Part shown: piece by piece, positions 508-62,310 of the stretch
How positions within the stretch are numbered: position 1 is the stretch's first letter
Layout: each line of letters begins with the position of its first letter
Assembly (NCBI GenBank): GCA_964036665.1
Contig: OZ038530.1
Location: forward strand, 17,382,001-17,446,000
From: Gordius sp. MW1
Taxonomy: Eukaryota > Nematomorpha > Gordioida > Gordea > Gordiidae
Length of the DNA: 64,000 nucleotides
Direction: 5' to 3'
The notes under the pieces: model-generated
Told to the model about the DNA's origin: nothing
The model's input: the letters and a program-made list of their open reading frames with translations, nothing else
Database searches by the model: none
Made by a program: the position numbers and the translations under genes

Positions 508-686
508 TTTCCTAAAATCGAATGGCCATCATGGCCTACACTGTAATCGCAACAAAGCCCGGTATCTTTGACATACCTCCGTTAACTAACTCATACATAA
601 CTATTTTACCAAAGCTGGTATCCCCTATATTCTTAAACCCATATGCCTCTGTGAAGATAGCAAACGACCCGATGGCCAAACTATTT

Positions 687-1952: not shown

Positions 1953-2529
1953 ATCTAGGCGCTTGAGAAAAGGACTCATTTTAGCATATTTGCTTCATCT
2001 TATCACAACAAAGATCCCCTGTCTTCAGCCGAGTCTCTGATATTCTGAAATTAACAACACTATATTTTTTTGTCCCATTGCGACAACCACCCTAACAATC
2101 TTTGGTCCCCAAGCCTCATAAATTATTAAAAAATAGGGAAACAAATCTCTTTACTATCCCATGATAATCGCAAATCGTTTTTTATAACACAGAAAATCGG
2201 CATAACTATCTGTAAATATAATTCATTAGTCATAGCGGAATGTTTTCCAGAAATTTATAATTCTTACATTTTTATTTATTTATCCTATCTTCACAAAATA
2301 TGTATTTTATAAAAAAAATTGATTAGTATATTTGGTTGAAATTGGAAATAATACAAATTTCCGCGAGTATAGTGAAAGCAAAAAGTTTTATATGATAAAA
2401 AATTAACAGCAAGCAAAATCTGATCGTAAATGGCTTTTTGTTGCAGCGTTAGCTTTGAGATCACGTTAGTTGTAACTTTGTTAACGATGTAAGTCTACAT
2501 CAAATAGAGCAGCAGCAGATCGATTCGGT
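1953..2529. other. AT-rich stretch, nothing recognised
   Basis: No coding frame, inverted repeat pair or known element end was seen between the mariner right end and the Helitron remnant. Confidence 0.5.
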
Positions 2530-4075
2530 GCAGGCATACTTAATTGAGTCAAAACTTTGTTTCAATTTTTTTGCATATATCTTCAAGAATAATAAATGTT
2601 TCGTTGTAGTGTTTAAGCAATTGATCCATGTTAATATTAAGATGTATATGACTATTCCGATTAATGATATCTTCTGTCATGTCTGCTTTATATTTATTCC
2701 ATAAATTGGTGAGACATGGAGAGCAGGAAATCAATACACGAAATTGTTTTGGATGTGAAATATAGCACGCGTCACTAATTCCATCATACCAATGATTATT
2801 ATGCTCTAATAAATGCATAGCTTGGCATGCACTGCGGAAAGTGGAACGTGCATCGCCGTTGACCACTTTTAACTGCTGGAAACACGTTGGGCCAGGTACG
2901 TCATGCGAAGAAAGAAACATTCATCTTGATTGGGATGAATAGTATATAGTCGGCCTATCGCATGCTGTGCGAATTCCATGTGCAAGACGTAGGCACTTCG
3001 CACTATTGCAGCTTTTGCGCAAAATCATCGTTTATAACTCGAACAACGCTGTTATCATTGTATCTGGGGAATTAAAGGCTATTTTGTTGACATTTGCATT
3101 TGTAAAATAAACACGTTGCCCATTTTCTAGATGTACAACTAAGGGAACCATAGTAAGACTGCCTACATGTATAGGAAAGGATAGAATACGCCATATAGCT
3201 TCATTGCTGCTTATATATCTTCCAGCCTGATACTAAGCGATTTCATCGATGTGAAGTCTCGCTATACAAGCATTGAGATCTATTTGAATGGTAAAAACTG
3301 TCATACCACTACCTTTGTTTACCGAATTACAATATTCAACATTGATGTGTTATGCATAATTTTGATAGCAGAGGACAATATGGAACAGTCCAGCGGTTAC
3401 CTACTCGACGCGAAGTTGTATGGGTACCATGTTACGACAATCTTTTGTTGATCTTGTTTTGTACAAATGATATATATTACTGCCCTTAATTGTGTTGCAT
3501 ACCAAGCCTCGAGGATATCGTTTTGAGCCTTTACCATATATTTCGCAAAGAGATTTTGGATTAAGTGTTTCGCAAAGGCCGTGCTCCATATTTTTCGTAA
3601 CAATTTTGCAAAAAATCCTTATCTAGGTTAAGATTAGGTATTATGAACACATTAAATCGTCGATTTTGTTTGAATGTGATCTGATTATATAACCATATGT
3701 GTGTATGAGCATGCAGAAACCTCTCTTTTACAGAGTACATCCATCAACGCACAGAGCCAAAGAATTAATTTAAGTTTCTGGCGGAAAACAGGGGCTGCGA
3801 TGTTATGCCCATAGACTGGCCCTGAAATAAAAGCTCATGTGCATTGCGCAGCAGGATTGCGTGTAAATGTAATGAATAGGTCTGGACGACCGTAGTTAGG
3901 AACATACGCAATTGAATCTTGGGCGTATTCATGCATATGATGTGGACAAAATGGTTAATTTTTTAACGTTCATTTTATTAGCGTCGTTAAGAGCTGCATC
4001 TCCATAGAACTGCATTTTAAGTTTGTCGGTAACCATTGTCTGCATTAATCATTTTAACGTTAAAGTAATGTTTTT
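2530..4075 (-). pseudogene. Helitron Rep/helicase ORF remnant
   Basis: Read on the minus strand in shifting frames, this gives a chain of Helitron-like pieces in the right order. They are YGRPDLFITFTRNPA (about 3.9 kb), MEHGLCETLNPKSLCE and HINVEYCNSVNKG (3.6-3.3 kb), YQAGRYISSNEAIWRILSFP with VHLENGQRVYF (3.2-3.1 kb), then HLLEHNNHWYDGISDA, LWNKYKADMTEDI and PAPNRSAA (2.9-2.5 kb). In intact Helitrons these belong to the Helitron_like_N/Rep region and the start of the PIF1-like helicase. Only 2549-2920 is open for any length. Stops and frameshifts show it is dead. The helicase proper and the element termini are not seen. Confidence 0.75.
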
Positions 4076-4639: not shown

Positions 4640-5290
4640 GAGTGTTTCAATTGCTATGCAATTTATGGGCTCGTTTTTCGTTGCCCGTCCGTTCCAATGT
4701 CCAACTTGTAATCTTTGCATAGGTGCAGTGGAGATTTTTAATGGCTGTGGACTTATGCTTCCGTAAAAGACTTTGATTTCGCTTTTACAAATAGACTATC
4801 TTATGACCGCTGGTAAATTTAATTTTCGACCTCGCCCGAGCTCAATATCGATTATTGTTGTTGTGCTCTACTGATTAGCTTTAAACATATATTTCCTTGG
4901 GTAATTTGTCTAAGTTGTTGCTATATATCGGATAATTGCGAAACTAGCTTAATGATTCCCAGCAAATTATGATGACCGTTGCTTACTTCTATTTTATCTG
5001 ACCCCGGCCAGAGACGAAAATTCTGGTAAATAGCTATTTATATTTGCTGTTTTGTGAATTTTACAATTTGTCAAGGTACGGAAGATTGCGAACTGGCTGA
5101 AAAATTCCATGCATATAAATGATGGCCGTTGCGTACTTCTACTTTATCTGACCCAGGCCAGAGGCCAAAATTATAATTTTGGTTAATTGCTATTTTAAAT
5201 GCATATTTGCTGCTTTGTGATTTTTTTCTTTCTTTTTGTTATTAACCTAAATTTTGCATTGATAATATATTGTTCTTGTTAATATGATTA
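4640..5290 (+). repeat. dispersed repeat, copy 1
   Basis: A non-coding repeat of about 650 bp found three times in the window. Shared landmarks include ATGGCTGTGGACTTATGCTT, TGATGACCGTTGCTTACTTC and CTGACCCCGGCCAGAG. The others are at 37979-38790 (split by a P-like MITE) and 56150-56510. Within this copy the segment with GACCGTTGC...TGACCC occurs twice (about 4970 and 5125). The minisatellite follows directly. Confidence 0.65.
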
Positions 5291-11929: not shown

Positions 11930-12829
11930 CCACTCTATTTAATGACTAGTCTAGCTTATGTAATATAAAAAATTTATAATTCCGGTCTAAGCGTTAAATT
12001 AACCTTCTTATCGAGACCTATAAGTTCTCAAGCTTTTTTCAACTCTTCAATTTGTTCAAGCGCTTGATAGAAGGGCTCAAACTGTGAAATGTAGATGAGT
12101 GGGTAGGATATTTGTTTTAGATTTGTTAATCTGTATCGTGCTGCTCTTGAGATTATAAGTTATTAAATTTAAATCCAAACAAATCGTTCAAATCCACGGT
12201 TGACTGGTTGGCTACAAATCGGAGGACAGGGACTCGTTGATTATACTGGGCTTTCGATCCAATCACTGGCCTTGTTGATACCCCATGTCCGATATGGGTA
12301 ATTGATCATGTAGGGTACAGATCTTAATAATAGTTAGAAATTATAAAATTTAACACCTTTAATACCTTAGGCTTATTATCTATAATGGTTTCAAATTAGC
12401 GGATTAAGCAATTTCACATTTTAAATAATTTATGGTACCTTGAATATTCTTTACCGTATTTGCTCAAGTGGTCTAACGCTCAAGGAATCTAAAATTTGCA
12501 AAGAATGCTTATAACTAATTAATTTTATATTTAATCATGTTATAAACGCTTTAAAAGATTGCAAAAACATATATTAAGCATATAATATATGAAGATTAAC
12601 GTTTTTTATCGCTGCATATATATTTTCTTTCATATTAAGCTAATAATATATGAAGCTTAAATTTTTTATTATTTTCTTTCATAGTTAAATTAAATGCTTT
12701 ATAATAAGTTAATATGCATTTACAATACTTTATATTGTTTATATAATAGATATACTTATATAATAATGTTTAAATTACAATTTTTGTGCATTAGATTACT
12801 TGAGCATTAGACCGGTTGAGTATAAATTT
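11930..12829. other. AT-rich stretch, nothing recognised
   Basis: No gene. Two near-identical segments with AATATATGAAG at about 12585 and 12645 are a small local duplication. Confidence 0.4.
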
Positions 12830-13008
12830 GTCTTACCTAAAGGGATTCATTTAGAATCACTTCTTTCTTTGGGTTATAAAGTAGAATAATCTAATCCTCT
12901 ACGGTTATAAAGTAGAATAATCTAATTCTCTAGAGAATTAGATTATTCTACTTTATAACCCAAAGAAAGAAGTGATTCTAAATGAATTATAGGTAAGACA
13001 TCGTGTTT
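12830..13008. repeat. near-perfect inverted repeat (hairpin)
   Basis: The sequence on each side of 12934/12935 is complementary through AGAGAATTAGATTATTCTAC, then TTTATAACCCAAAGAAAG and AAGTGATTCTAAATGAAT. An extra partial copy of TTATAAAGTAGAATAATC sits in the left arm near 12904. A long stem would form in RNA or single-stranded DNA. It may be a foldback transposon relic, but no target duplication was identified. Confidence 0.75.
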
Positions 13009-29433: not shown

Positions 29434-30788
29434 TACCATCCGTGTTAGCATTTTAGACCCGACGGACGGAGTGTTAAACTTTTATATTTGATTTTTGGTT
29501 ATGGGCACTTATTTGTTGCTCTTTAATGAAAATTCATGATATAAGCTAGATTCAACCCCATTTTGATTTCTAAATAAAAGGGATATTATGAATTTTTAAT
29601 AAGCAAACGTAAAGCAATCACAAAATGAGTTAATTTGTACCTGTATGGGTCATGTTTCTTTTGGCTTTACAATGGATTATAAGTCTTTTATAAGAGAATT
29701 TTCTAATGCTTCTTCGGCTTTAATTTTAAATGGTTTTTTAAAAGAATAGACCACGATAAATACAAAAAGGCTCAGCACGAAAGGGGGAGTATAATGATTT
29801 TTTCTCAATATTACTATTTTTTGATAAGTGAGGGGGGGGGCATTACCCCTACTATAAAATTATCAAACTTATTTTATAAATTATCTACAACTGTAAATTA
29901 TATCATAAAACTTCATTTTTTGAATTTTTTTACATGTTACTTATTTCGTATTTATCAATTTTTTGTCACTTTTCTACGAAGTCTGAGGGCTCCGCCCTTA
30001 TCTATGACTCATTGCGTTTTATAATTTTTAAAAGTAGTACAAGAATATTCCTATTAAGTTCCCGAGGTTGAAAGTTAGATTTTTTATAGTAATAATTTGT
30101 TTTTGATCTCTTAAAGCACCAGAATTGTAGATAAAAAAAATTGGACAATACAGACACTAGCAAGGGTCGTCCCATAAATTGCACATTCTCGGAAGCTTGC
30201 TTGATGTTAATTTGATAATAACAACTCAATATCGCGACACCACCACTAGCTCCCCCCCCTCGCACTCATTTATAGTAAATGGGAATTACCCTTAATTTTT
30301 GCTATTACGTAAAATCGCGTTTAAAGAGGAAAGTCCCCAGGCTTTTTCGGAATATAATTCAGGTCCATCAGACAGTTAGCTAGCTAGCTATGCGACTCTC
30401 GGTCTATGGCGTAGTTTAAAAATGCCAAAATACCAAACTTGATTCAATTTTCGCTTTGGACTAAATAGGGGAATACTTTGGATAATTATATATAAGTCCC
30501 TTCACTCTACCACTATTTTTCCTAACGAAAAAACATTGTGTCATCCGAATTTGGCTTTAGTAGATCGTCTAATTTTCCCCCCTAATGCCAAAACCCCCCT
30601 TAATTTTTGCGGTTGTGCATTGGCCGTGATAGCGTGTGACTTCTTTGAATTATCATGAGTATGGAAAAATTTTACATTAGCATATTTCCTTCCCCTAGAG
30701 ACCGGCACAGCCGCCCGAACCAGGCCCGGCCCTAGAGTCGGGTCTTACTTGATGGGCCAGCAAGCCTTAGTTAGTAAACAATTTGATT
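29434..30788. other. intergenic or intronic DNA, decayed repeats
   Basis: No gene. A G9 run lies at 29832-29840. GC-rich CCGCCCGAACCAGGCCCGG at about 30711 recalls hAT-type ends elsewhere. Confidence 0.35.
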
Positions 30789-30993
30789 AGTGTTGTAAAA
30801 ATGGCTGAGTTTTGTTTGGTCGACCCTTGGTTTTAGTCGACTAAACACATAAACAGACCCGAGGTTTTTTGGTCAGTTTTTCTTAATCCACCTCTAAACT
30901 TTGTCTTAATTTGAAAAATAAACTAAATGCGGCCATTAGTCTTAGTAAAACTAAAGGTCGACCAAACAAAACCCAGCCCTTTTTCCAACACTA
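30789..30993. mobile_element. TTGGTCGACC palindromic MITE, copy 1
   Basis: About 205 bp. Ends AGTGTTGTAAAAATGGCTG and, reversed, AGTGTTGGAAAAAGGGCTG, then GTTTTGTTTGGTCGACC on both arms. The family consensus from eight copies starts AGTGTTGTAAAAACGGCTGG. It is nearly a full hairpin and encodes nothing. Confidence 0.8.
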
Positions 30994-37593: not shown

Positions 37594-37796
37594 TTGTGTT
37601 GTAAAAACGGCTGGGTTTTGTTTGGTCAACTTTTGGTTTTAGTTGACTAAGCATAACCAGACCAAAGTTTTTTGGTCTGTTCTTCTAAGGCGACCACTAA
37701 ACTTAGTCGAAATTTTAAAAACAGACTGAGTCGACCGTTAATCTTAGTTAAACCAAAGGTCGACCGAACAAAACCCAGCCGTTTTTACAACATTAC
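37594..37796. mobile_element. TTGGTCGACC MITE, copy 3
   Basis: Complete palindromic copy, TGTTGTAAAAACGGCTGGG to its inverse, lying 60 bp below exon A in the following intron. Confidence 0.85.
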
Positions 37797-37978
37797 TTTA
37801 CTGTGGCATGCCAGAATATAGTGACACAAATTAAAGATATTTTCTTTTGCGTTTTTACTCGCAAATTTTTTGCATTTTTTTAAATTCTATTCCCTTTAAT
37901 TTGATAAATCGGGGACTTGGAGAAATTCCAAATGAATCTTCTGTAAAGGCATATTTTTGCCTTAAATTGTGTTCGTCC

Positions 37979-38790
37979 TGTCCAACTTGAAATTTTTTAA
38001 TAATTGCTGTGGAATCATAGACTACATAGACTGCTCATCACGGTATAAAATGTGTGTGTTTTTTTCCGCCATTTTGAATAACACTACCGTCCTATACCAC
38101 ATAATGGCGTTTTGCGCTGTGCCGTTTTGTTCGAACAGGAGAGGTAAAAAAAATGGTTTTGATTCCATAAATAAGTAAGATATTACAAAATATATGATAT
38201 TTTTAAAAATTTTTAATATCATTACAGTTTTTACATTTTTAATTTTTATGAAATGTGTCAATAATAAATTTTAAAAAATATCATATATTTTGTAATATCT
38301 TACTTATTTATGGAATCAAAACCTTTTTTCTTTACCTCTCCTGTTTGAACAAAACGGTACAGCGCAAAACGCCATTATGTGATATAGGACGGTAGTGTTA
38401 TTCAAAATGGAGGCAAATTTCACACACAATTTGCCATACATGGGCAGTCTATGTAGTCTATGTGTGGAATACGGGTTTTTAATGTCTCTGGACTTATGCT
38501 TTGGTAAAAGTCTTTTATTCTTCTTTCGCATACAGACTAGTAAATGCCCCCTGGTTTGCTCTAATTTTTTCGACCTCGCCCTAGCCCAAACTCCATTTTT
38601 GTTTTTGTGTCCGGCTGATTACCTTTATTAAATTGCTTTTAGTAACTTGTCGAGGTTGATGCCTTTATAACGCGCTTATTGCGAAACTGGCTAAAAAATG
38701 CCCCACGAATTAATGATGACCGTTGCTTACTTCTTCTAATTTTCCTTACCCTGGCCCGGGGCCAAAATCATCGTAAAGAAAAAATGTTAG
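37979..38790 (+). repeat. dispersed repeat, copy 2, split by a P-like MITE
   Basis: GTCCAACTTGAAATTTTTT before the MITE and GGGTTTTTAATGTCTCTGGA, TGATGACCGTTGCTTACTTC, CCCTGGCCCGGGGCC after it match the repeats at 4640 and 56150. The MITE at 38016-38462 interrupts it within TGTGGAAT. Confidence 0.7.
38016..38462. mobile_element. palindromic P-like MITE with a THAP-type exon in each arm
   Basis: A 447-bp element with perfect termini CATAGACTACATAGACTGC and an exact 8-bp duplication TGTGGAAT (38008-38015 and 38463-38470). The arms, about 190 bp each, are inverted copies around about 38250. Each arm has an ATG (38104 on plus, 38375 on minus) opening MAFCAVPFCSNRRGK, followed by a GTAAA/GTAAAG donor. 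C-x4-C then SNRRG is the start of a THAP zinc finger, the DNA-binding domain of P-element transposases. P elements also begin with CA and make 8-bp duplications. It is non-autonomous. Confidence 0.85.
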
Positions 38791-39283
38791 CACGTGACAT
38801 GAAAAACTCATAGATTGTAAATGTTTACAAAGTAGTCATCCAAATCCTCTTTTCTCACATCTTTGTTTCAAAGGAAATCTGTAGTAATGACGGTTTAAAC
38901 TTTGGCTAGACTTAAACGCTTCAGCTTCTAAATAAAGCGTAGCTGGGGACTCCGCCCTGAGACCCCCCTTAGCCAAGCACAGTGCCTGCTTCACATATCT
39001 CTGCTTTAAATCCTCATACACTACGGTTATTACTCTTTTATACTACGCGTATAAACAAAGGATATTTGTTGCTATGCAATTTATATTCAAATCGATATAA
39101 GCATCGGGTAAATTTAACTCATAATCGCATAGCAATTAATATTATTGGAAAAAGCTAAAGTATATTCATGCCCGACTTGACTCGATTTATATCGAAAAAA
39201 GCAAAGTTTTACCTAGTTTAACCCTGTACTAACTAAAAATAACAATAGGCAGTAAACGCCTACCGCGAAGCTCAAAATGTCAT
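38791..39283. other. intronic or intergenic DNA, nothing recognised
   Basis: No gene. GTTGCTATGCAATTTATA and CGCATAGCAATTAATA near 39070 and 39125 are inverted relatives of a motif at the start of the dispersed repeat (4650). Confidence 0.35.
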
Positions 39284-40726
39284 TTATGCCATTCCATGAC
39301 AAATCAAAACGTTTTCGACCGACCATTTCATATCAAGATAATTTTTGGTGAGGGTGTAGGCCTCATTTATTAGAGTAATTTCTGAAATTTTTTAGCCATT
39401 TTGGGCCAATACTTTTTAAGTTGTGGAGGTTTGAAGGGCCAAAATCACGTTCAGAAGCGTTTTATGGATTTTATTTTTTTTGTCATATTTTTGAGAGTAA
39501 TTGCGTTATTCACTCAAATTTTTTTTTTCTATCGAAATAATTTAATTAAAAACCTCAAACATTTGCGATTAATTTTTTGTGGTCAAATTAGTGGAAAATT
39601 TTTAAAACGTATTTACCCTTTAAATGAAATCACAAATTTCACAATGTGCACTCCTTTATGACCCATTATCATATTTGAATCATAAAAAGTTTGGGAGCGG
39701 TTACGAAATGGTCAAAAATTCGAAAAATTACATTTCCCCTAAAAATATTTATAGATGGCGGTATAATCAATTATATCAATGACATATTATTATGTTTGTT
39801 TATTATCTAATTGCAAATTTATAAAGAATATATGGTAAACAAATAATATTGGAATAAAAATAAACTTAAACTTTGATCTTTTTTTTCTGCGCAATGGGCA
39901 AGTATCCGAGTTTAAAAATTAGATCTTGAATTTTAACTTAAATGATATAGGGGTAGACTAAAATTAATGTGAGGTTGAAAAAAAATAAATTATGATGGCA
40001 AAATTGCTCGTATATTTTTATTTTTTTACTGATAATCCATGCTAAATATAAAAATTTATGCAGAATGAATGTTGTTTAAAATACTTTGCTTGCTAGTTGT
40101 GACCATTTAATTAAAATTAAATTTATTTTCAAACTCGATTACTTTCCCATCGCGTAGATAAAAGTTCAAAATTTAAGTTGATTTTTAATCCAATATTATT
40201 TATTGACCATATATTCTTTATAAATTTGCAATTTGATAAAAAAACAAACATCATAATATGTTATTGTGATAATTGATTATTAGGGGAAATGTAATTTTTC
40301 AAATTTTTGACCATCTCGTAGCCACTCCCAAACTTTTTATGATTGAAATATGATAATGGGTCATAAAGGAGTGCACGTTGTGGAAATTGGTAATTTCATT
40401 TAAAGAGTAAATATGTTTTTAAAATTTTTCACTAATTTGACCACAAAAGATTAACCGCAAATGTTTGGGGTTTTTAGTTAAATTATTTCGATAGAGAATT
40501 TTTTAAAAACAAAAATAGTAAAATCCATAAAACGCCCCCGAACGTGATTTTGGCCCTTTAACCGTCCATAACTTAAAAAGTATTGGCCCAAAATGGCTAA
40601 AATTTTCAGAAATTACTCTAATAAATGAGGCCTACACCCTGGCCAAAAATTATCCTGATCTGAGATGGTCGGTCGAAAATCGTCTTTTTTGACCAATCGA
40701 CATGGAATGGCCCATGTGACATCGAC
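39284..40726. mobile_element. foldback element, arms about 600-700 bp
   Basis: Two inverted arms meet near 40000. Matching landmarks are GCCATTCCATG at both ends, CGACCGACCA, GAGGCCTACACCCT and its inverse, TTTTGGGCCAATACTTTTTA, and CATTATCATATTTGAATCAT. The arms still match closely over most of their length. No transposase frame was found. The frame at 39401-39661 lies in one arm and is mirrored by a broken one in the other. Confidence 0.8.
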
Positions 40727-41930: not shown

Positions 41931-42102
41931 TCGACCTTTGGTTTTAGTCGACTAACCATAAACGGACAAAGGTTTTTTGGTCTGTTTTTCTTAATCGACC
42001 TCTAGGCTTAGCCGAAATTTGAAATACAACCGGAGTCGACTGTTAATCTTAGTTAACCCAGAGGTCGACCAAAAAAACCCAGCCCTTTTTACAAAACACT
42101 AG
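41931..42102. mobile_element. TTGGTCGACC MITE, copy 4
   Basis: TCGACCTTTGGTTTTAGTCG and GGTCGACC with CCCAGCCCTTTTTACAAAAC at the right end. The left outermost 30 bp are missing. Confidence 0.7.
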
Positions 42103-44731: not shown

Positions 44732-44833
44732 GATTTTACAGTTCTCGTCACTGAAAGAAGGGGAGCGGGCTGCTGGGTTGATTTATTTTAGGTTGGGAAT
44801 TTGATGTCATTCGAATCAGAGGGGGCTATAATG

Positions 44834-45008
44834 TGGTGTTGTAAAAACGGCAGGGGTTTGTTTGGTCGACCTTTGGTTCAACCAGGACTAACGGTCAACT
44901 CCGGTATGTTTTTCAAATTCCGACTAGAGATCGACTTAGAAAAACAGACCATGTTTAGTCGACTAAAACCAAAGATCGACCAAAGACTCAGCCGTTCTTA
45001 CAACACTA
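44834..45008. mobile_element. TTGGTCGACC MITE, copy 6
   Basis: TGTTGTAAAAACGGCAGGGG to its inverse AGCCGTTCTTACAACACT, with GGTCGACC and TAGTCGACTAAA inside. Confidence 0.8.
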
Positions 45009-45211
45009 CTATATTGGTACGGGTTGAGTTTGATAATTGAAATGGGGGCAGACTTTTTTAGCTTAAATCTACGACTCTTTTGGCTATAGGCTATTCGCGA
45101 TAGAGTTTTCACTAGTTCATAAAGTTAATGAGATGTCTCTTAAAAAATTTTAAGCATTTTTTGTTGAGAGATATTATTTAGCATTTTAAAATTTGGCTTT
45201 TAAACGTTAGA

Positions 45212-45805: not shown

Positions 45806-48800
45806 GGAAAGTGAGCATCCCCATCTACCCTTTCCTTCCCCCTTCTACTACCAACATCCCTTCCTCCAGCACCAGCCTTCATACGCCCATTCCCCTTACT
45901 CTTCTCAGCCTAAAGATGTGAATGGCGTTGCCGCCGCCGCTTCAGCTTATGAAAGTTGGTATCAAGCGTTACGACATCAATACGTAGCCGCGGTTATGGC
46001 GTCAAGCGCTTATACGGGTATTACACTGATTTTCACTCGTTCAATTAGATGGGAGGAGTATTACACTGGATTATTAATTGTTTGAAAGTCGCATTTTAAT
46101 AGGTGTAAGGATGTGACCAAATTTATGAGTTTTTTACCCAAATGTACGAGCGGTTTCTATAAATTTTTCTTAGAAAGCCTTGGTTCTTTCAACTTGCTGG
46201 GTTTTGTTTTGTTAAATAAATTGATGTGTATTTTGATTTTAACATTATTAGCTTATATTGGGTTTGAGGGTATTTTTAAACCACGGCGCTTGCACGTTTG
46301 GCAGGTGCTTGCACTTACTTCAACAAGATAATAAATACCCCGATGTACTACGTATTGCGGCGTAGTTGCTTATGGTAAAACTTAATTTGCTCCTGGTATC
46401 TTTGGATTTAAATTTAAAATAGATATTTTTTGCCGACTTTTATAATTCCCGTAAACTAGTAACCTGCACGGTTGACTCGGACCCGACATCAGGCGGGGTT
46501 AGGGTTAAAAATTTTGAAATTTCTTTGGGTCAAGTTCGGATTGATAATTTTAAAATGCTCTCGGGTCGGGTTCGTCTTGATAAAAAGTGACTTTACAGTT
46601 CTCTACCTTAAACACGATATAACAAATTTTTTTAACTCAAATGCTAGGTAATTACTCTAGCAACCCAGCTAACATGAGGTCACAAACTCCCAACGGAGAC
46701 GTTTCTACATCTCCCCTGATCACCGAACAAAATTCACCCGTTTTAGCTCCAAGCTCTATCCTCCCACCTCCTCCCTATTTCGCTTCCCCATCCTTCGCAA
46801 ACGCAAACCTACCACCTTACGTAGTAGCATCAAACGGCGCTCTGGAGCAGCAACAACATTTTTACGCTGCCGCCGCCTATTATTATCAAGCGGCTTACGC
46901 CGCGGCCCAAGCCAATCACGAAAAATCGGCCCGAGCGTCTTATTTCGACGACGCCTTTACGCTCCGGAGTAGGGAGCGCACGCTCGAAATGCCACCTTCG
47001 CCTAAACCGCGCGCTGCTAAGATAGATGATATAACCGCAAAAACGCCCGAAACGGTAGCTATAGTAGTGGCTGCCGCCGAGTCTACAACTTCATCACCCG
47101 CAGCGGGTCCTGGCGCGCTTAAAGCTAACGACGACCCCGTCAGCTCTCCACACTCGGTTCCAGAAGCGCTAACCACTACTGTTACTACCGCTGGTTGTGG
47201 TGGTGTCGACCAAATCAAAAAGACGTCTTTCAAAATTTGGAGACAATTTGGGCAGAGCACTAGCGCTACTACACCCTCTACAGCTTTATCGGTGTCCACG
47301 ACGGCGTGCACTAGCGCGGGAGTCGATAAGAATTTCGTCAAGCAACAATTCAATCTCAATCACATCCTGGAAAACTTGAAATCGCAGCAAGCAGCCTCGA
47401 GCGTCCCCTACCCTTTAGGGCAATCGCCTTACCATGGCAACAATCATCACGCCTCTACGGCTAGCATATTAGCCGCGGCGCGAAATGAAAAGTTCGTATG
47501 TCCCACGTGCTCTAAAGTGTTTCAGAAACAGAGCCAACTAAGCTTGCACATAAACGTGCACTTTTTCGAGCGCCCATTCAGATGCGAAGCCTGTAACCAG
47601 AGATTTCGGATAAAGGGTCTCTTGACTAAGCACAAATGCCCATCCAAAGGCGCGCTCACGACGCGCTCGGGCTCGAATGTGGAAGCGTCATTTTGCGCTG
47701 CTGCCGCTGGCTCTTCGCTAGACTCTTGTACCTTTGCCGACCTCTCGTCCGCTTTTGATTTGAGCACCAGCTTCTATTTGAGCGCCAGCGCCGCCTCTAA
47801 AACTAATCCTACCAGCAGCCCTTACCCTGATGTACGTATCTCCTTAAAATGCATGAATTTTTGCCTTTTTATTTATAGGTGTTAGGGGTTGTTTAAATAT
47901 TTGAATTGAATTGAAGATCTTTTGATTAAATAATTGATTTGGGAAATTGGTATTAATTTTGTTTTTTCATTAATATTATAGGTCATTTTTATTCAGGACC
48001 CCATTTTTTAAACCTGGGTTAAGTTTTTTTTATTTTAAAAATTCTGCTACGTGACCCCTCAAAGAATCTTGTGTCATTAAGACACTACTCTACCCCAAAT
48101 TCGATAATTAGATTTATTAACAATTACAATACGATTTCGTTATCTGGCACTTTTGAGTGACCATGGAAAATCAATTGTAGGGAGTCTTTATTTAACTTGG
48201 CTCTACTGTAAGACAAGCCTTAATCTTAAATATAAATTTAGCCCAGCTCTACAGCCAATGGTCAACCCGGTGGAGGTTCTACCCCAACCAATGACCCACG
48301 ACCCTTCAAGTGCGACGATTGTCAAGTGGCTTTCAGGATTCAAGGCCATTTGGCTAAGCACTTGCGTTCGAAGATGCACATAACAGGGCTCGAAAAGAAT
48401 GGCAAAGTCCCGTGCGGTACTTACGCCTTTTTCGATCAACGCGCCAGTTTAAACGATATCGATACAACCAGTTGTAGCGCTTCTCTCGGTAATATCATTC
48501 ATTAGCCTTCTCATTTTGCTAGTGTTGGAAAAAAGGCTGGGTTTTGTTTGGTCGACCTTTGGTGTCTTATCAAAAAATCTTTGGTCTATTTATGTTTAGT
48601 CGACTAAAACCATATTGACCAAACAAATTTAGCCGTTTTTACAACACTACCTTTTGCACAGTTATCGTGAAAGCGCCCATTACTTTTATTTGCAATTACA
48701 AATTGATATAAATTAAGTGGATTTTTATCATTGTGCTTTTAAGAGACTAAGATATAGCGGTTTGAGTACGCGTCCAATGGCGGTCATAAATTTTAAGCTC

Positions 48801-50523: not shown

Positions 50524-52375
50524 TTCTTCTTCTTTCTATGACTGATTGTCACCTAGGCTGGTGGTCAGTCCTTTCAGCATTCGTTTCCATTTGTTTCTAT
50601 GTTTACATAGGTCTTTCTTTATCTTGTGGACTTTCACATCGTGCCGTATTTTATGAATCCAGTTCCAGGTAAGCTTGGGTCTTCCTCTCCTTCGTTTCGT
50701 GCGAATTATATCATCTCGATTTTCTTTCCGGCGTAGGTATCGTCCCTTCGTTCGACATGGCCATACCATCTAAGTCTATTTGTTAGGAGCTTTGTCGTAA
50801 GATATGTAGTACCCAGAATTCTTCTTATTTCTTCATTTCGCGTATGTTCCTTTTTGCTTACTCCTAGCACCCATCTTGGCAATCTCATCTCCATGGTCGC
50901 AAGACGCTGCTCTTCTCTTTTACGTATAGCCCATGATTCCGAGCTATACAGGACTGTTGGCTGTATGATGGATTTATACAGTGCGCCTTTTAGTCTTCTC
51001 GGAATGTTTTTTGTCACACAGAACGCCTGTCAAGTTTCTCCACTTAAATCCGGAATTTATTCTTTTGGATTTCTTTATCCATTCCGCCCCGATTGAAGTG
51101 TTGATCCTAAATATTTGAAGGAATCCACGCTTATAAGTTGCCAGTCGCCTAAAGTAAGGGATGCACTTAGCTGGTTTTCATCCTATTTAAACTTTGTATT
51201 AGAGTTGTTAAATTGCTAACTTTAGCAATGCTAACTATGTTCTATGCTCGAGCACGAACACTAGCTGGGTAATATGCTAGCTTAACACAATGAGTACTAG
51301 CTGTTCGGTGCAATAGTTTAACAGTAGCACGTAAAAATGCTCGAGGTTAGTCGAAGCGGCCAAATCTGTTAAAAAATTTAGCAGGAGCTCGAGCAGTAAA
51401 TTTAGGCAGATAGTAGATTGAATTGCTATTTGTTAAAATTACAATTTTAATCATATTATATATCATAAATAAATTAAGAACTTTGCCCCCTCCCCCCTTA
51501 TTTACCCTCTTTCTTGCCAGATGGGGGGGGGGGGTGTGTTTTGCCCCCCCCCCTTATTTTTTACCATCTTTCTTACCAGATGGGAGGTGGGGTATTTTGC
51601 CCCCCCCCCTTATTTTTTACCCTCTTTCTCAGCAGAGGGGAGGGGAGGTTTTGCCCCCCAACTTTATTTTTTACTCTTTTTCTTACCAGGGGGGGGGCAC
51701 CAGTGAAAAAGAGGGATAAAAAACAAGGGGGCAAAACACCCCCCCCCCCTCTGGTAAGAAAGAGGGTAAAAAGTAGGGGGGGGGGGAGCAAAGTTCTTAA
51801 TTTATTTATGATAATAATATGATTAAAATTGTAATATGAACAAATAGCAATTCAATCTACTATCTGCTCGAATTTACTGCTCAAGCTCCTGCTAAATTTT
51901 TAAATAGATTTGGCTGCTTCGACTAACCTCTCGAGCATTTTTACGTGCTACTGTTAAAACTATTGCACCGAACAGCTAGTACTCATTGTGTTAAAGTAGC
52001 ATATATTACCCAGCTAGTGTTCGTGCTCGCGTTTTTAGTTGAAGCTACTTAGCAATTTAACAACTATAGTCTTCATGCTGTTTTCTTTCGATTTACCCTG
52101 AGACCACTTTCTTCTATTGCATTTACCCATCTATTTACAGTATTAGCCAATTCTTGTTCACTTTTGGCACAAAGGATTATATCGTCTGCAAAGATCATTG
52201 CCCAAGGAGCTTCCTCGTCCAAATCCTTGTAATAATATCCATTATCATTATGAATAGGAAAAGACTAAGAGCTGAACCTTGATGGACTTCAGTGTTAATG
52301 GCAAAGCCCTTTGTAGTACCCACCGTTGTTCTAACGTACGTTCTGTTTCCCTTGTACAAATCTTTAATTGCTCTT
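50524..52375 (-). pseudogene. RTE-like non-LTR element, 5'-truncated, split by a foldback element
   Basis: Minus-strand pieces: TEVHQGSALS and the box AMIFADDIILCAKSEQELAN (52.2 kb, FADD in place of YADD), then after the interruption KGALYKSIIQPTVLYSSESW, RLRWYGHVERR and RRRGRPKLTW (51.0-50.65 kb). The 3' end is a GAAGAAGAA tail at about 50526. Removing 51204-52064 restores continuity of the RT and its C-terminus. The upstream RT and endonuclease are absent. Confidence 0.8.
51204..52064. mobile_element. foldback element 1 with G/C-run core
   Basis: Inverted arms of about 280 bp begin GTTGTTAAATTGCTAA at 51204 and end with the inverse at 52064. Landmarks such as AGCTAGTGTTCGTGCTCG and ACAGCTAGTACTCATTGTGT are shared. 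The core (51485-51792) is a G-run/C-run repeat with TTTTTACCCTCTTTCTTACC and its inverse, the same core as in the elements at 53240 and 56520. Runs reach G12. Open frames across the core (51423-51822) are products of the repeat, not genes. Confidence 0.85.
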
Positions 52376-52948
52376 AAATGATAATGAACAATTAAATTCG
52401 TCGATAATAAACAATCGCTTGAGGAAAAAGAAGCTTGAACAGCTTAAGATTATCGTGCGAGACTGGTCAAAGTTAAAAAAAAACTTAGTGAATAAGCTTT
52501 CACCATTCTCGGATTTAATAATTCTCATCTTAGTTATCATATTAAATTAAGCATTGAATACACGACCCAAGGTGTCTAAACTAACGATTTTTTTCCTATT
52601 TCTCTAGATGATACATCTTAACATAGTTGAAAATGAACTACCATAGACTAATAGACAGCTGACTTACACTGTTCACAAAAAATATCAACCGGGAAAGAGT
52701 TAATTCTAAAGAGCTCCTTTTAGCAAATAGGTTTTTTACTCCATGTCAATTATTTTGCAAAAGTCACCGTGTTAGCTCCTTCTAAGAGTGTATACCGCAA
52801 AAACAAAGCGATTACATTCAAAAATAAAGCATCTAGGTTGTAAAACAAATCAGGGTTCAAATTAATAAAAATAAGCTAATTAGTTTTTGATTTATATTAA
52901 AGATTCATTTACTCATTATAGTTTGCCCGATTGATTTTTGGTTTAGGC
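52376..52948. other. AT-rich spacer with a P-like end fragment
   Basis: CATAGACTAATAGACAGCTG at 52642 matches the left end of the CATAGACT family. No right end follows. Nothing else recognised. Confidence 0.4.
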
Positions 52949-53172
52949 GCATAGCCAGGATTTTCACGAGGGGGGGGGGAAATCTGGCAAATTTTTTACA
53001 GCGCATTTTGTCAAAAATTTAATCAAATTAAATTAGATGTATGTATATATTATGTTTCTACGTTTTTATAAGTGTCTTAAAGTCTTTGATGTAACTAAAC
53101 TATAATATTTTGACCCATTTAATTTAGGTATTAATCAAAAAACAGGGTATTCCCCCCCCCCCTATTTACGCC
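52949..53172. mobile_element. GGCGTAGCC-type MITE, diverged copy
   Basis: AGGCGCATAGCCAGG, a G10 run, and at the right a C13 run with TATTTACGCCGCAG. The layout matches copies 1-3, but the ends are degraded. Confidence 0.4.
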
Positions 53173-53239
53173 GCAGTTTTGGTTACATTTCCATCGGCTT
53201 ATATCCATATGCAATTATGGTATGTGTACTGTATGTAGT

Positions 53240-55368
53240 GCTGGAGGTTCGAAGTTTATAAGGACCTCAAGGTTTTTCATATAAAAAAACCTTAAAACCT
53301 CAGGTGCACCTTGAGGTCACCTCGAGGTTTCAACAAGTATGCTTCATTTTTTATATCTTAATTTTAAGACTAAATTATAGTCTCTAACAAAAATTTTTAA
53401 TAAGTGTATATATATATTAACAAATTTATTTTAATAGCAAATTACGTATATAATCTATAAATTTTTACTCTCTAATAAATTATCATCTAATTTGATAGAA
53501 TTAATGCATGTGTATTTAAAAATTGCTGCCATCTACATTGTGTTATATTTTTATAACACAGCTTTAAAATTTCCTGCCTATCTATGGTATTCTGTGATAT
53601 ACACACCTTGTATTTTTTTAATAGTTCTTTTATGGACAAAAAGGGATAATTGTATGATTTTTATGTATTTTAGATTGTATAAATAGTAAGACGGCCGGGC
53701 GGCACCAAAAATAAATATCAATCTTAATTAAGAATTCCTCATTTAAACAGCATAAACTTCATATTTATGTCAATCGAGATAAAATTTTTAAGCAATTTGA
53801 TTTTTTTACTAAATCTATATAACGTGACGTGACCAAATCTCGAAAAACATCATAATTAAAAAAGCATGGTATTTAAATGCACAATAATAAATTAAAAAAT
53901 GCTCAGTAAAATGTGGCTCAGTATTTTATTAAAGTGCCCAGTTTAAAACTTTAAATTGATCAGTAAATAAACTTTAAAATGCTCAGTTTTAAATTAATAA
54001 TGCTCAGTATTTTTGATAAAATGCTCAGTAATATAAATTCATAATTTGTGATAATAATTTATTTTGCGCTTACATTTTATAATAATATTTTAATTGGTAT
54101 ACAATTTTTTTTTTAATAAGAACTTTGCTCCCTCCCTTTTTATTGTCCCGTTGGTTTCCCCCCCCCCCTTTATTTTTTACTCTCTTTCTCACCTGGGGGG
54201 GGGGGGTAATTTGACCCCCCCCCCCCCCTTTTTCCCCTTTTTATCACAAGGGGATGTGATTTGCCCCCCCCCTTCCCAATTTTTTTACCTTCTTTCTCAC
54301 CCGGGGGGGGGGGGGGGTGATTTGGGCCCCCTTATTAATTGCCCTCTTCCCCAGGTGGGAAAGAGTAAAAAAAGGCGGGTTAAAAGGGGGGGGGTAAATC
54401 ACCCCCCATCCCTCCCCCCTGGTGAGAAAGAGGGTAAAAAACAAGGGGGGGGGGGAGAAACCAACGGGACAAAAAAGGGAGGGGGGCAAAGTTCTTAATT
54501 TATAAAAAATTGGATATCCCAATTAAAATATTATTTATTGTGCAAAATAAATTAATATCACAAATTATGAATTTATATTACTGAGCATTTTACCAAAAAT
54601 ACTGAGCATTATTAATTTAAAACTGAGCATTTTTAAGTTAATTTACTGATCAATTTTGAGTTTTTAACTGGGCACTTTAATAAAATACTGAGCCACATTA
54701 CTGAGCATTTTTTAACTTATTACTGTGCATTTAAATACCATCCTTTTTTAATTATGATATTTTTTGAGATTTGGTCACGTCACGTTATATAGATTTAGTA
54801 AAAAAATCAAATTGCTTAAAAATTTTATCTCGATTGACATAAATACGAAGTTTATGCTGTTTAAATGAGGAATTCTTAATTAAGATATTTATTTTTGGTG
54901 CCGCCCGGCCGTCTTACTATTTATACAATCTAAAATACATAAAATTCATACAATTATCCCTTTTTGTCCATAAAAGAACTATTAAAAAAATACAAGGTGT
55001 GTATATCACAGAATACCATAGATAGGCAGGGAATTTTAAAACTGTTTTATAAAAATAACACAATGTAGATGGCAGGAATTTTACACATGCATTAATTCTA
55101 TCAAATAAAGTGATAATTTATTAGAGAGTAAAAATTTATAGATTATATACCTAATTTGCTATTAAAATAAATTAGTTTGAACTATTTTTAATACATATAT
55201 ATACTTATTAAAATTTTTTTGTTAGAGACTATAATTTAGTCTTAAAATTAAGATATAAAAGATGAAGCATATTTGTTGAAACCTCGAGGTGACCTCAAGG
55301 TGGACCTGAGGTTTTAAGGTTTTTTTATATGAAAACCTTGAGGTCCTTATAAACCTCGAACCTCACCT
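53240..55368. mobile_element. foldback element 2, arms about 0.9 kb, G/C-run core
   Basis: The whole of 53240-54110 is present in reverse at 54500-55368. Landmarks include GTTCGAAGTTTATAAGGACC, AGGTCACCTCGAGGTTTCAA, GGACAAAAAGGGATAATTG, ACGGCCGGGCGGCACC and several AATGCTCAGTA repeats. The arms differ by only scattered changes and small gaps. Frames such as 53492-53686 are mirrored in the other arm and are not supported as genes. Past 55368, AGGTTGATTGACAACCT is a further small inverted repeat. Confidence 0.9.
54121..54497. repeat. G/C-run core of foldback element 2
   Basis: The junction TAAGAACTTTGC is followed by alternating C and G runs (up to about 15) with TTTTTTACTCTCTTTCTCAC and its inverse. 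It is the same repeat family as 51485-51792 and 56680-58960. Confidence 0.85.
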
Positions 55369-55732
55369 TGAGGTTAGGTTTGAGGTTGATTGACAACCTG
55401 AGGTTGTCAATCAACCTTAAACCTTACCTTGAGGTTAAGGTTTATAAAACGTCAGGTTTCCCCACCATTAACTGTATGTGGTGTGGGTGGTATGTTTTGT
55501 GATATACATTTTAGTAATATGCCTATATTCGCAACTTTTAAACAAATTATTTCAAAAAACTTGACGTATAAGGGAAAGACAGAAAACATATTTGTTCATG
55601 TTTAACAAAATTTGTTAATCGTTTTTCGATCTCACAGACCATTATTTGTTGTAAGCGCAAATAGTGCCAAGTTACAAATTACACCCGTATATACCTAATC
55701 AAGCAAGATCTTTTCAAATCACTAATTCTAAA
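55369..55732. other. spacer, nothing recognised
   Basis: AT-rich; only the short GAGGTT inverted repeats at its left edge. Confidence 0.4.
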
Positions 55733-56021
55733 ACATGTATAGAGATCTGCACGGCCCGCGCTTCTGGTTCAAAATAAAACAACGGGCCGGGCCGACGGGC
55801 CGATATATAACTTAAGGGCTCGGGCCGGGCCTAGTTATACTTAAGGCCCGTTAAAAAATTAATTAGATTTAATATAAAAGAAGGTGTTTTATTCTAATTT
55901 ATAATTATTTTAAGTTTTTAAATTAACAAGGAAAGTTAAATTTGGTTTCCATTCTAGTTCATTAATTCATCGATATTTCAACCCGCATAATATATGTTAA
56001 AGATAATTTGTGCGCGTGATC

Positions 56022-56145
56022 CCATGGGCGGAGCCAATTTAAATTAGAGGGAGAAATTTAGATAGGGCAAAAAATGTTTTTTCGTCAAGAATTTTTGGAT
56101 TAGGGGGCAGCTGCCCATCCTTGCCTCCTCATTTATACCCTCTAG
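56022..56145. mobile_element. GGCGTAGCC-type MITE fragment
   Basis: ATGGGCGGAGCCAATTTAAA at the left and GGGGGCAGCTGCCCATCC towards the right, as in copy 1. The right terminus is missing. Confidence 0.5.
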
Positions 56146-56149
56146 CAAT

Positions 56150-56510
56150 ATTGAGTGGCTATTCAATTTATGGGCTCTCTTTTGGTTGTCCGTCCTCTCC
56201 ATCCTGTCCTGTCCAACTTGCAAATTTTCCATAATTGCCGTGGAAACTTATAAGGGTTTTTAATGGCTGTGGACTTATGCTTCTGTAAAAGACTTTTATT
56301 TTGCTGACCGTTGATTAGCTTTACTTTTTTCGATTTCCCAAGCTCAAAACTATTGTTTTTGTGCCCGACTGATTACCTTTATTAATAAATTTCTTTGGGA
56401 AACTTACGTGGCCATATATCGGATAATTGCAAAACTGGTTATAATTTCCTGCAAATTAATGCTGACCGTTGCTAACTTCTAATTTTTCTGACCCCGGTGT
56501 AATATTGGAG
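56150..56510 (+). repeat. dispersed repeat, copy 3
   Basis: TTTTTAATGGCTGTGGACTT, ATATCGGATAATTGCAAAAC and CTGACCGTTGCTAACTTCT match copy 1 at 4640. It stops at CTGACCCCGG, just before foldback element 3. Confidence 0.7.
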
Positions 56511-56519
56511 TCAGCGAAC

Positions 56520-59253
56520 GTTGTAAAATAGCGAAGTCAAATGTCAATCAAGCGTCATATATTATTTAAAATTGTTTAAATAGTTCTTATTGGCGGATAA
56601 AAACGTCAATCATCAATAATATTATGTTATTTAACATTACAATTTTAATCATATTATATATCATAAATAAATTAAGAACATTGCCCCCCCCCCTTATTTT
56701 TTACCCTCTTTATCACCAGGGAGGGTGTTTTGCCCCCGCCCCCCCCCCCGCTTATTTTTTATCCTCTTTCTCACCACAGGGGAGATGGGGGGAAGGGGGG
56801 GGGGGTGTTTTCCCCCCCCCCCTTATTTTTTACCCTCTTTCTCACCAGAGGGGAGGGGGGTTTTGTCCCCCCCCCTCTTATTTTTTATTCTCTTTCTCAC
56901 CAGTTTTTTATCCTCTTTCTCACCACAGGAGAGATGGGGGGGGGGGGGGGGGGGGGGTGTTTTGCCCCCCCCCCTTATTTTTGACTCTCTTTCTTACCAG
57001 AAAGGAGGGGGGGTCTTTCCCCCCCCCATTTTTTATCCTATTTATTACCAGAGGGAAGGGGGGGGTGTATTGCACCCCTTATTTTTTATCCCTCTTTTTC
57101 ACTGGTGCCCCCCCCTGGTAAGAAAAAGGGTAAAAAATAAAGGGGGGGGAGGCAAATCACCCCCTTCTCCTCTGGTGAGAAAAGGGATAAAAAATAGGGG
57201 GGGGGGGGCAAAACACCCCCCCCCCCATCTCCCCTCTGGTGAGAAAAAGGATAAAAAATAAGGGAGGGGGGGGCAAAACACTCCCCCCCATCTCCCTCCT
57301 GGTGAGAAAAAGGACAAAAAATAAGGGAGGGCTTTCTCACCAGGGGTGAGAAAGAGGGTAAAAAATAAGGTGGGGGGGGGGCAAATCACCCCCTCCCCTC
57401 TGGTGAGAAAAAGGGTAAAAAAAACTGGGGGGGGGAAGCAAATCCCCCCTCCTCCCTGGTAAGAAAGAGGGTAAAAATAATGGGAGGGGGGCAAATCACC
57501 CCCCCCCCCCTCCCTCTTGTAAGAAAGAGGGTAAAAAATAATGGGGTGGGGGGCAAATCACCCTCTCCCCTCTGGTGAGAAAAAGGGGAAAAAATAATGG
57601 GGGGGGGAGCAAATCCCCCCCTCCCCCCTGGTAAGAAAGAAAATAATGGGGGGGGGCAAATCACCCCCTCCCCTCTGGTGAGAAAAAGGGTAAAAAATAA
57701 TGGGGGGGGGAAGCAAATCCCCCCCTCCCACCTGGTAAGAAAGAGGGTAAAAAATAAGGGGGGGGGGGCAAATCACCCTCTCCCCTCTGGTGAGAAAAAG
57801 GGTAAAAAATAAGGGGGGGGAAGCAAATCCCCCCCTACCCCCTGGTAAGAAAGAAAATAATGGGGGGGGGGGGCAAATCACCCCCTCTCCTCTGGTGAGA
57901 AAAAGGGTAAAAAATAATGGGGGGGGGGAAGCAAATCCCCCCTCCCCCCTGGTAAGAAAGAGGGTAAAAAATAATGGGGGGGGGGGGCAAATCACCCTCT
58001 CCCCTCTGGTGAGAAAAAGGGTAAAAAATAATGGGGGGGGGGGGGGGAAGCAAATCCGCCCCTCCCCCCTGGTAAGAAAGAAAATAATGGGGGGGGGGGC
58101 AAATCACCCCCTCCCCTCTGGTGAGAAAAAGGATAAAAAATAATGGGGGGGGGGAAGCAAATCCCCCCTCCCCCCTGGTAAGAAAGAGGGTAAAAAATAA
58201 GGGGGGGGGGCAAATCACCCCTACCCTTTGGTGAGAAAGAGGGTAAAAAATAGTGGGGGGGGGCAAATTACCCCTTTCCCCCCTGGTGAGAAAGAGGGAA
58301 AATAAGGGGGGGGCAAATCACCCTCTCCCCTCTGGTGAGAAAAAGGGTAAAAAAAGGGGGGGGGAAGCAAATCCCCCCTCCCCCCTGGTAAGAAAGAAAA
58401 TAATGGGGGGGGGGCAAATCACCCCCTCTCCTCTGGTGAGAAAAAGGGTAAAAAATAATGGGGGGGGGGAAGCAAATCCCCCCTCCCCCCTGGTAAGAAA
58501 GAGGGTAAAAAATAATGGGGGGGGGGGGCAAATCACCCTCTCCCCTCTGGTGAGAAAAAGGGTAAAAAATAATGGGGGGGGGAAGCAAATTCGCCCCTCC
58601 CCCCTGGTAAGAAAGAAAATAATGGGGGGGGGGGCAAATCACCCCCTCCCCTCTGGTGAGAAAAAGGGTAAAAAATAAGGGGGGGGGGAAGCAAATCCCC
58701 CCTCCCCCCTGGTAAGAAAGAGAGTAAAAAATAAGGGGGGGGGGGGGCAAATCACCCCTACCCTTTGGTGAGAAAGAGGGTAAAAAATAGTGGGGGGGGG
58801 GGCAAATTACCCCTTTCCCCCCTGTTGAGAAAGAGGGTAAAAAATAAGGGGGGGGGGGCAAATCACCCCCCTCCCCCCTGGTGAAAAAAAGGGTACAAAT
58901 AAGGGGGGGGGGCAAATCACCCCCCCCCCCTCCCTCCTGGTGAGAAAGAGGGTAAAAAAAAATATTATTCTATTTAATTAACTTAATATTTAATTCAACA
59001 CAATTAGCATCTACCTTGCAAAATGTTATTAAGATGAATATAATTTATCTATCTCTAATTCAAATATGGGATAATTGACGTTCAAATTTAAAAACGCTAT
59101 GGTTTAACAATGGGATCGTCAAAAGTAACAATGCATTTTCCCAATCCCCACCCAATCCCCTGCTAGGAAAAAAAGACGTGATAAACGTCAAAACTCATTT
59201 TTTCGTGTTTTTAACCAATAGCAATTCGTATTTGATGTTCGCTATTTTACAAC
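56520..59253. mobile_element. foldback element 3 with expanded G/C core
   Basis: Termini GTTGTAAAATAGCGAA (56520) and its inverse (to 59253). The left inner arm (AATTTTAATCATATTATATA, CATAAATAAATTAAGAAC) is also the inner arm of foldback element 1. Most of the element is the minisatellite at 56680-58960. Arm similarity beyond the first 25 bp is weak. Confidence 0.7.
56680..58960. repeat. 2.3-kb G-run/C-run minisatellite with higher-order structure
   Basis: Units of about 45-60 nt read: G-run, CAAATCA or AAGCAAATC, C-run, TCTGGTGAGAAAAAGGGTAA (type A) or CCTGGTAAGAAAGAGGGTAA (type B), AAAATAAT. The array is inverted left of about 57105 relative to the right. A shortened B unit, GGTAAGAAAGAAAATAATGG, recurs near 57631, 57843, 58070, 58386 and 58605, giving a period of about 215 nt. 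A larger period of about 537 nt is seen between 58200 and 58737. The longest run is G22 at 56936-56957. Each unit can form a small G-run/C-run hairpin. All long frames here are artefacts of repeats that lack stops. Confidence 0.9.
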
Positions 59254-59440
59254 CTTCGACATTTCTGTACGCTACACCGGCGCCAAAATTTTTATACTCA
59301 TTATCATTAACAAATTTAAAAACAAATTCTGAAATTTATTTTTTCAAGTTACTTTTACACTGTATTTACATTTTATATCAATAACCAAAATATTTGAAAT
59401 GGTGGAAAAGCAAAGAAGTTAAGTAACTTGATTAAAACAT

Positions 59441-61789: not shown

Positions 61790-62310
61790 CATTTAGAGAA
61801 ACGCTGTATTCGGATAGAAAATTTTGCGCTGAATAATAATCTGTTTTTCTTTTTTTCCAAACTTCTAGTTTTTTAGATAACAAGGTTGAAGCTTATTTTA
61901 ATTTTTGAGGCAATATTGCTGCTGCATTTTTAATTTATACCGAAAAATATTAATTTCTTCCTGTAGATTAAAGTCTCATCTATAGGTCCATTTTTAGTTT
62001 TTTTTTGTTTTAAATCCGCGGAATTTTAATAAGGGGAAAGGATTCACGTAAAAGGGAATAAATTAAAATATATAGTTGAAACAAAAAAAAATAAAATAAT
62101 GGACCTATAGATGAGACTTTAATCTACAGGAATAAACTAATATTTGCAGCATAAATTAAAACTGCCGTGGTGATATAGCCTCAAAAAAGGTTAAAATGGA
62201 AATTTTTTGCACCTTCAACCACGTTTATCTAAAAAACTGGAAGTTCTTGAAAAAACAAAGATTATTGTTAAGCGCAAAATTTTATTATCAGAATTATAAG
62301 TCCGATTGCA
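61790..62310. repeat. foldback repeat below the FCP1 gene
   Basis: Inverted arms of about 200 bp meet near 62050: ATAGATGAGACTTTAATCTA with CAGGAA, GCAATATTG/CAGCATAAATTAAAA, ACTTCTAGTTTTTTAGATAA and AAAATTTTGCGCTGAATAAT have matching inverses. A short AT-rich loop separates them. Confidence 0.7.
62281..62286 (-). terminator. candidate poly(A) signal of the FCP1 gene
   Basis: TTTATT (AATAAA on the gene strand) about 160 nt below the stop codon, inside the foldback arm. Confidence 0.35.

Follow-up and report, generated by a model that had tools for sequence, protein, structure and literature searches.

How do neighbouring mobile elements come to be alike at their centres when their outer arms differ? 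This question is raised by a 64-kb stretch of the genome of the nematomorph Gordius sp. MW1 (GenBank assembly GCA_964036665.1, contig OZ038530.1, positions 17,382,001 to 17,446,000 of the forward strand; hereafter the window), in which three neighbouring elements, here named E1 (51.2-52.07 kb), E2 (53.24-55.36 kb) and E3 (56.49-59.28 kb), hold the same G-run/C-run repeat. We found that within this window a minisatellite module, inverted once, is common to elements with different outer arms. A sequence-only reading of the locus had described three foldbacks and suggested either that a core is retained while arms are exchanged, or that the core seeds new palindromes. E1 and E2 are indeed foldbacks, with arms that are 93% and 96% identical respectively, whereas the flanks of E3 have only a 28-bp inverted repeat.

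A repeat core that is inverted once in each element

The repeat unit is about 57 bp long and consists of a G-run, CAAATCA, a C-run and TGGTRAGAAAGAGGGTAAAAAATAA. With up to three mismatches allowed, TTYTTRCCMTCTTTCTYACCAG has 44 matches in the window, every one of them at 51.5-58.96 kb within E1 (5), E2 (3) or E3 (36), against a shuffled expectation of 0.01 (largest count, 1); the same repeat thus lies at the centre of all three elements, as had been proposed. A looser scan, in which up to five substitutions were permitted, was restricted to 51.0-59.5 kb and left shortened units without the motif uncounted. It recovered 48 units, and in these the 22-bp part of the unit outside the G/C runs is recognisable with 0 to 5 substitutions. 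The forward and reverse units number 4 and 2 in E1 (core at 51482-51792), 3 and 2 in E2 (54124-54490) and 8 and 29 in E3 (56680-58960), and in each element the orientation of the units flips once; this single strand switch has an exception in E3, where a forward fragment of 12 nt, spotted by eye, lies at 57332-57343. The junction TAAGAAC.TTGC, which had been thought to be kept throughout, occurs on each side in E1 and in E2 and on the left side of E3, but not on the right side of E3.

A tandem array was called in the E1 core; the E2 core yielded no array above the tandem-repeat threshold, and its units are known by motif only. The main period in E1 and E3 is 56-57 bp, and E3 also has shorter sub-arrays with other periods. 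Within the reverse array of E3, positions 57892-58343 and 58433-58880 are 92.7% identical, and such higher-order repeats indicate that the array expanded in place. The E1 centre folds better than shuffled sequences (-10.4 kcal/mol, z = -3.6), and three pieces of the E3 array gave z-scores of -3.2, -1.7 and -0.2.

E1 and E3 share a centre and an inner arm

At its strand-switch point, E1 (51664-51728) reads as the reverse complement of the E3 switch point (57084-57140), with 62 of 65 columns identical (score 113), and the next best non-overlapping place for this centre in E3 scores 58. The likeness extends beyond the repeat, as the left arm of E1 matches E3 from position 56631: beginning at 51433 in E1, the similarity covers 63 bp at 95% identity including the junction, and about 48 bp of this lies outside the core. 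The inner arm common to the two elements (51438-51481 in E1, 56636-56679 in E3) had been put at about 45 bp; it measures 44 bp and is found on the left side only of E3, and its score was reached by none of 1000 shuffles. Because the same 65-bp centre and 44-bp inner arm occur in both, descent of the E1 and E3 cores from one already inverted array is, judged from their sequences, well supported. No clear similarity was found between the middle arms of E1 and E3 in eight comparisons (67 to 975 of 1500 random windows equalled the observed value). That the core is retained while the arms differ is therefore borne out, most firmly for this pair of elements.

E3 looks like a non-palindromic Ginger1-type transposon

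E3 is a short transposon that occupies 56498-59276, or 56494-59280 if the duplications CCGG at 56494-56497 and 59277-59280 are included, and its ends are TGTAA on the left and, on the reverse strand, TGTAG on the right. Ginger1 elements combine a CCGG-type duplication (CCGG or CCGT/ACGG) with TGTNR termini, according to the part of PMC2836005 available to us. In the window, CCGGTGTNR occurs at a single site (56494) and its reverse complement at three (32110, 32178 and 59272). A subterminal inverted repeat in E3 (56515-56542, with its partner at 59230-59258; identical at 26 of the 28 aligned bases, with one gap) lies 17-18 bp inside the ends, the outer part having diverged; the terminal inverted repeats of Ginger1 measure 40-270 bp. 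Beyond these 28 bp the flanks have nothing inverted in common, so that the long inverted arms of a foldback are absent from E3; the core itself is inverted. We found no Gypsy-integrase-like transposase of the Ginger1 type in E3, and no open reading frame (ORF) of at least 120 amino acids outside its low-complexity core, nor outside the cores of E1 and E2. Since E3 lacks a transposase frame, it is at best non-autonomous, and from its sequence it looks like a non-autonomous transposon of the Ginger1 type around an inverted core.

The module in E3 is bounded by a 17-bp direct repeat, AATATTATGTTATTTAA (56618-56634, with its partner at 58961-58977; 15 of 17 bases identical). The last base of the left copy lies 2 bp ahead of 56636, at which the stretch that E3 has in common with both E1 arms begins, and the repeat recurs directly after the last unit. 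When anchored at the junction, its score was reached by 28 of 19841 random AT-rich pairs, in tests that were devised after the repeat had been seen. The right inner arm is absent from this module, which resembles a copy placed in a host rather than a complete transposon. The left flank of E3 belongs to a dispersed repeat family with further copies at 4.65-5.03 and 38.47-38.78 kb (4653-5030 and 38469-38777); the third copy (56158-56497) adjoins the left side of E3 and is apparently its target.

E1 is a foldback that splits a LINE

E1 (51200-52069) is made up largely of its inverted arms, 51200-51494 and 51780-52068, which align with 264 identical, 20 mismatched and 16 gap columns (264 of 284, or 93%, without gaps). 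Long inverted arms likewise form the bulk of E2, and in both elements the inverted part contains the tandem units, with forward units to the left and reverse units to the right. E1 splits an antisense long interspersed nuclear element (LINE), and its two flanks match successive parts of a second copy of the LINE, at 31.7-32.7 kb. When stop-free pieces of the two flanks were compared with that copy, one side matched up to RKKT (E = 3e-14) and the other from VDSFKYLGS (E = 0.002 there, and 6e-6 to 9e-13 further on); the reversed-sequence control gave no matches. Because of frame shifts in the LINE, the duplication made by E1 is given as a candidate, TA or TAG (51200-51202 and 52067-52069).

The left terminal repeat of E1, GTTGTTAAATTGCTAA (51204-51219), forms an exact pair with the right copy at 52049-52064. 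Identity between the arms is 19/20 in the first 20 bp, 24/40 in the next 40 columns (51220-51259) and 229/247 in everything but those 40 columns, the first 20 bp included; the dip is significant (P = 4e-7 by Fisher's test), for a block that was picked after inspection. Ends at which only the terminal repeat is alike, with symmetric arms inside them, are what is expected of fold-back copying from the centre.

E2 is a foldback with its own centre

The arms of E2 (53244-55364) are about 880 bp long, and 53244-54140 aligns with 54473-55364 in 840 identical, 36 mismatched and 37 gap columns (840 of 876, or 96%, without gaps). The TAAGAACTTTGC junction and the repeat are present, as in E1 and E3. 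Outside the core, the only exact match to those two elements is ATAAATTAAGAAC, 13 bp in the right arm, with less in the left; over 60 bp, the inner arms of E2 were not significantly similar to those of E1 and E3 in six comparisons (77 to 485 of 1000 shuffles reached the score). Nor did the ends of E2 show a clear similarity to the ends of E1 or E3 (497 to 3992 of 4000 random windows equalled it). A weak candidate for a flanking direct repeat (53228-53240, with its partner at 55471-55483; 12/13) has a score that was reached by 407 of 19803 random pairs, and its right copy lies about 100 bp outside the arms. Were this repeat real, the mostly palindromic 55365-55467 would be a possible extra right-hand end of E2 beyond the symmetric arms. 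A small AGGTT-rich palindrome is found at the right end of E2 (55347-55447).

Proposed copying of an inverted module, and its rivals

The account that we favour, tentatively and at rather less than even confidence, is that one inverted minisatellite module was copied between different short transposons, and that the arms of E1 and E2 were then made symmetric by fold-back repair. A single inversion of a minisatellite with the unit of about 57 bp would have produced a head-to-head array that had a specific centre and a short inner arm. Copies of this module may then have passed, probably locally, among different non-autonomous DNA transposons that lie within 8 kb, with repair synthesis or template switching, and not a transposase of its own, as the most likely means. 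In E3 it would have lodged in a non-palindromic Ginger1-like element, bounded by the 17-bp direct repeat and without its right inner arm. In E1, and in E2 if that element belongs to the same event, as we infer together with the direction of copying, breaks near the inverted array may have been repaired by fold-back copying in which one side of the host replaced the other, yielding a foldback. Mobility would have been preserved by the hosts' own terminal repeats; E1 lies as a unit within a LINE. In yeast it is established that diverged inverted repeats fold back in single-stranded DNA, as far as the available part of PMC10164571 relates.

A bolder form of this account, in which the inverted minisatellite is a travelling palindrome seed that is copied into transposons of different superfamilies and turns its hosts into foldbacks through fold-back repair, with a core that is passed on across families and arms that derive from the hosts, seems to us unlikely. 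E3, as a non-palindromic host, speaks for a core that seeds palindromes; seeding as a general rule is opposed by at least four coreless palindromes in the same window, at 12.8, 38.0, 39.3-40.7 and 61.8 kb.

Further observations weigh against a copied module with later symmetrisation, and the case needs to be read cautiously, as it is built on three elements in one window. The outermost parts of coreless palindromes are also weaker (25/30 and 24/33 at 38.0 kb, 43/58 at 39.3-40.7 kb), and hence the dip in the outer arms of E1 is not special. In E2, identity drops to 24/36 from 54094, beside the core, which counts against copying that starts there; the centre of E2 is unlike that of E1 and E3 (the best score for their centre in E2 is 53) and has no folding advantage over shuffles (z = -0.1). 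Support for the E3 direct repeat drops when the comparison is unanchored, its score then being reached by 285 of 19856 random pairs. The match with the target family gains little from the right flank of E3, which was equalled by 477 and by 91 of 2000 random flanks, and it is accordingly chiefly the left flank, together with the duplication, that defines the boundary of E3. Finally, of the three bases that adjoin the module on the outside, two differ between the arms of E1, which fits with insertion of the module into the loop of a pre-existing palindrome, and the terminal repeats of E1 and E3 are alike at 13 of 16 positions, in register, so that these two elements may belong to a single family instead of being unrelated hosts.

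The last point leads to the main rival, which we consider somewhat doubtful: E1, E3 and perhaps E2 would derive from a single foldback element, whose middle arms were replaced or diverged through recombination between copies and which, in E3, lost most of the right arm. The marginal terminal match together with the dissimilar middle arms gives this rival its place; the inner arm, core and centre are likewise common to E1 and E3, and copies of Galileo swap terminal inverted repeats and internal segments, as far as PMC3573991 was available. However, the terminal likeness goes only marginally beyond chance (in four comparisons it was reached by 19, 47, 192 and 297 of 4000 random windows), the candidate duplications differ between E1 (TA/TAG) and E3 (CCGG), and the ends of E2 are not clearly like those of either. 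Nested insertion, by which the module would be a small foldback transposon that inserts into other elements at their hairpin loops or AT-rich middles, strikes us as improbable. It would account for the central position of the module in the E1 palindrome, with three imperfectly matched bases on either side, and for the direct repeat that flanks the module in E3, but a duplication of 17 bp is long for a cut-and-paste transposase, the E3 module lacks one inner arm (its presumed terminal repeat) although the direct repeat is retained, and two chance insertions at a centre would be improbable without loop targeting.

Two other explanations are far less probable. The same low-complexity repeat might have been acquired and expanded separately in the three elements, with convergence of the G/C runs; some units do fold better than shuffles, as one E3 piece shows, and the higher-order repeats are evidence of expansion. 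The recognisable 22-bp part of the 48 units argues against this, and for E1 and E3 the common non-repetitive inner arm and centre refute it, which leaves it conceivable only for the inversion in E2; as a whole we regard it as highly improbable. Misassembly of palindromes and arrays around homopolymers is very unlikely as well. Assembly is difficult across G/C runs and palindromes, and the unit counts may be wrong; yet the arms diverge by 4-7% with insertions and deletions, unlike a duplicated or chimeric read, and the insertion boundaries of E1 and E3 are sensible.

Other features of the window

On the basis of Pfam matches to its reading frames, the content of the window is eukaryotic and animal-like. 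Five of nine reading frames had a match and four had none; the matches were to HTH_48 and Transposase_1 of the mariner type, RVT_1 and a zinc finger, with a 7tm receptor below its cut-off. A decayed mariner-like transposase lies at 761-1840, and a LINE with a reverse transcriptase domain at 31.7-33.6 kb on the minus strand. This LINE may be RTE-like; RVT_1 is the one domain that was found in this second copy. For the zinc-finger reading frame, a structure search returned zinc-finger chains among the best 60 of 109 matches. Rfam gave nothing at gathering scores in the window, and none of four scans of viral contigs, made with the core, the junction, a stretch of the E1 arms and a stretch of the E2 arms, gave a match. 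The sole match to the core among genome contigs, on a metagenome-assembled contig of Flavobacteriaceae, is single and has no G/C repeat nearby, and was taken as chance.

Palindromes and repeats without the core occur elsewhere in the window. The palindrome at 38016-38462 is 447 bp long, and each of its arms begins a reading frame, MAFCAVPFCSNRRGK (38104 forward, 38375 reverse), which we take to be THAP-like; Pfam returned no match for the 24-residue piece. At 39277-40722 there is a foldback without the G/C core, with arms of 668 and 619 bp around a 159-bp spacer (550 identical, 59 mismatched and 69 gap columns), and two more coreless palindromes lie at 61808-62294 and 12829-13000. A short repeat family is represented in both orientations at 30788-30991, 37596-37800, 41931-42102, 44829-45009 and 48519-48650.

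Comparison with known systems

Several described elements resemble E1, E2 and E3 in part, and the comparisons below are limited to the portions of the cited papers that were available. Galileo of Drosophila, a member of the P superfamily, has long inverted arms with internal tandem repeats, internal sequence recruited to the arms and chimeric copies produced by exchange (PMC3573991, PMC4168063). Exchange in Galileo takes place among subfamilies of one element, whereas here the core is common to elements with different outer arms. The 7-bp duplication of Galileo and P elements was not found, the candidates being TA/TAG in E1, the 12/13-bp repeat in E2 and CCGG in E3; a P-type transposase was not found either among ORFs of the length considered above, although non-autonomous copies would lack one too.

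Tetris and DAIBAM of D. virilis are likewise foldbacks with tandem repeats and a source of satellite (PMC4079207), but there the outer ends are common to two elements, whereas here the inside is common and the outer arms are different. The Mutator/Foldback element Tm1 of Meloidogyne has composite arms, short tandem motifs and a purine-rich stretch (PMC3169594); it is also characterized by 9-bp duplications and conserved terminal motifs, and no duplication of that type was found in E1 or E3, E2 having the weak 13-bp direct repeat with one mismatch. Ginger1 (PMC2836005) shares with E3 the CCGG duplication and the TGTNR termini, and differs from E3 in that the latter lacks a transposase frame and its terminal inverted repeat is weak. 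The pearl elements and satellite-carrying transposons of bivalves are modular short transposons with satellite-like arrays (PMC5139131, PMC7492417), and in one of them, DTC84, a conserved palindrome lies close to the repeat junction; an inverted array with a single centre common to elements with differing arms was not found in the available part of PMC5139131.

Among the matches listed from the open-licence literature, no title or abstract opening describes a constant inverted core with differing arms. Foldbacks and miniature inverted-repeat transposable elements with internal tandem repeats are already known in kind, and a once-inverted minisatellite module common to elements with different outer arms is, as far as we found, an unusual foldback architecture. 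If our account is true, the inverted core in the non-palindromic E3 and in the palindromic E1 and E2 would represent the states before and after conversion to a foldback, and a satellite-like array would have moved across transposon families.

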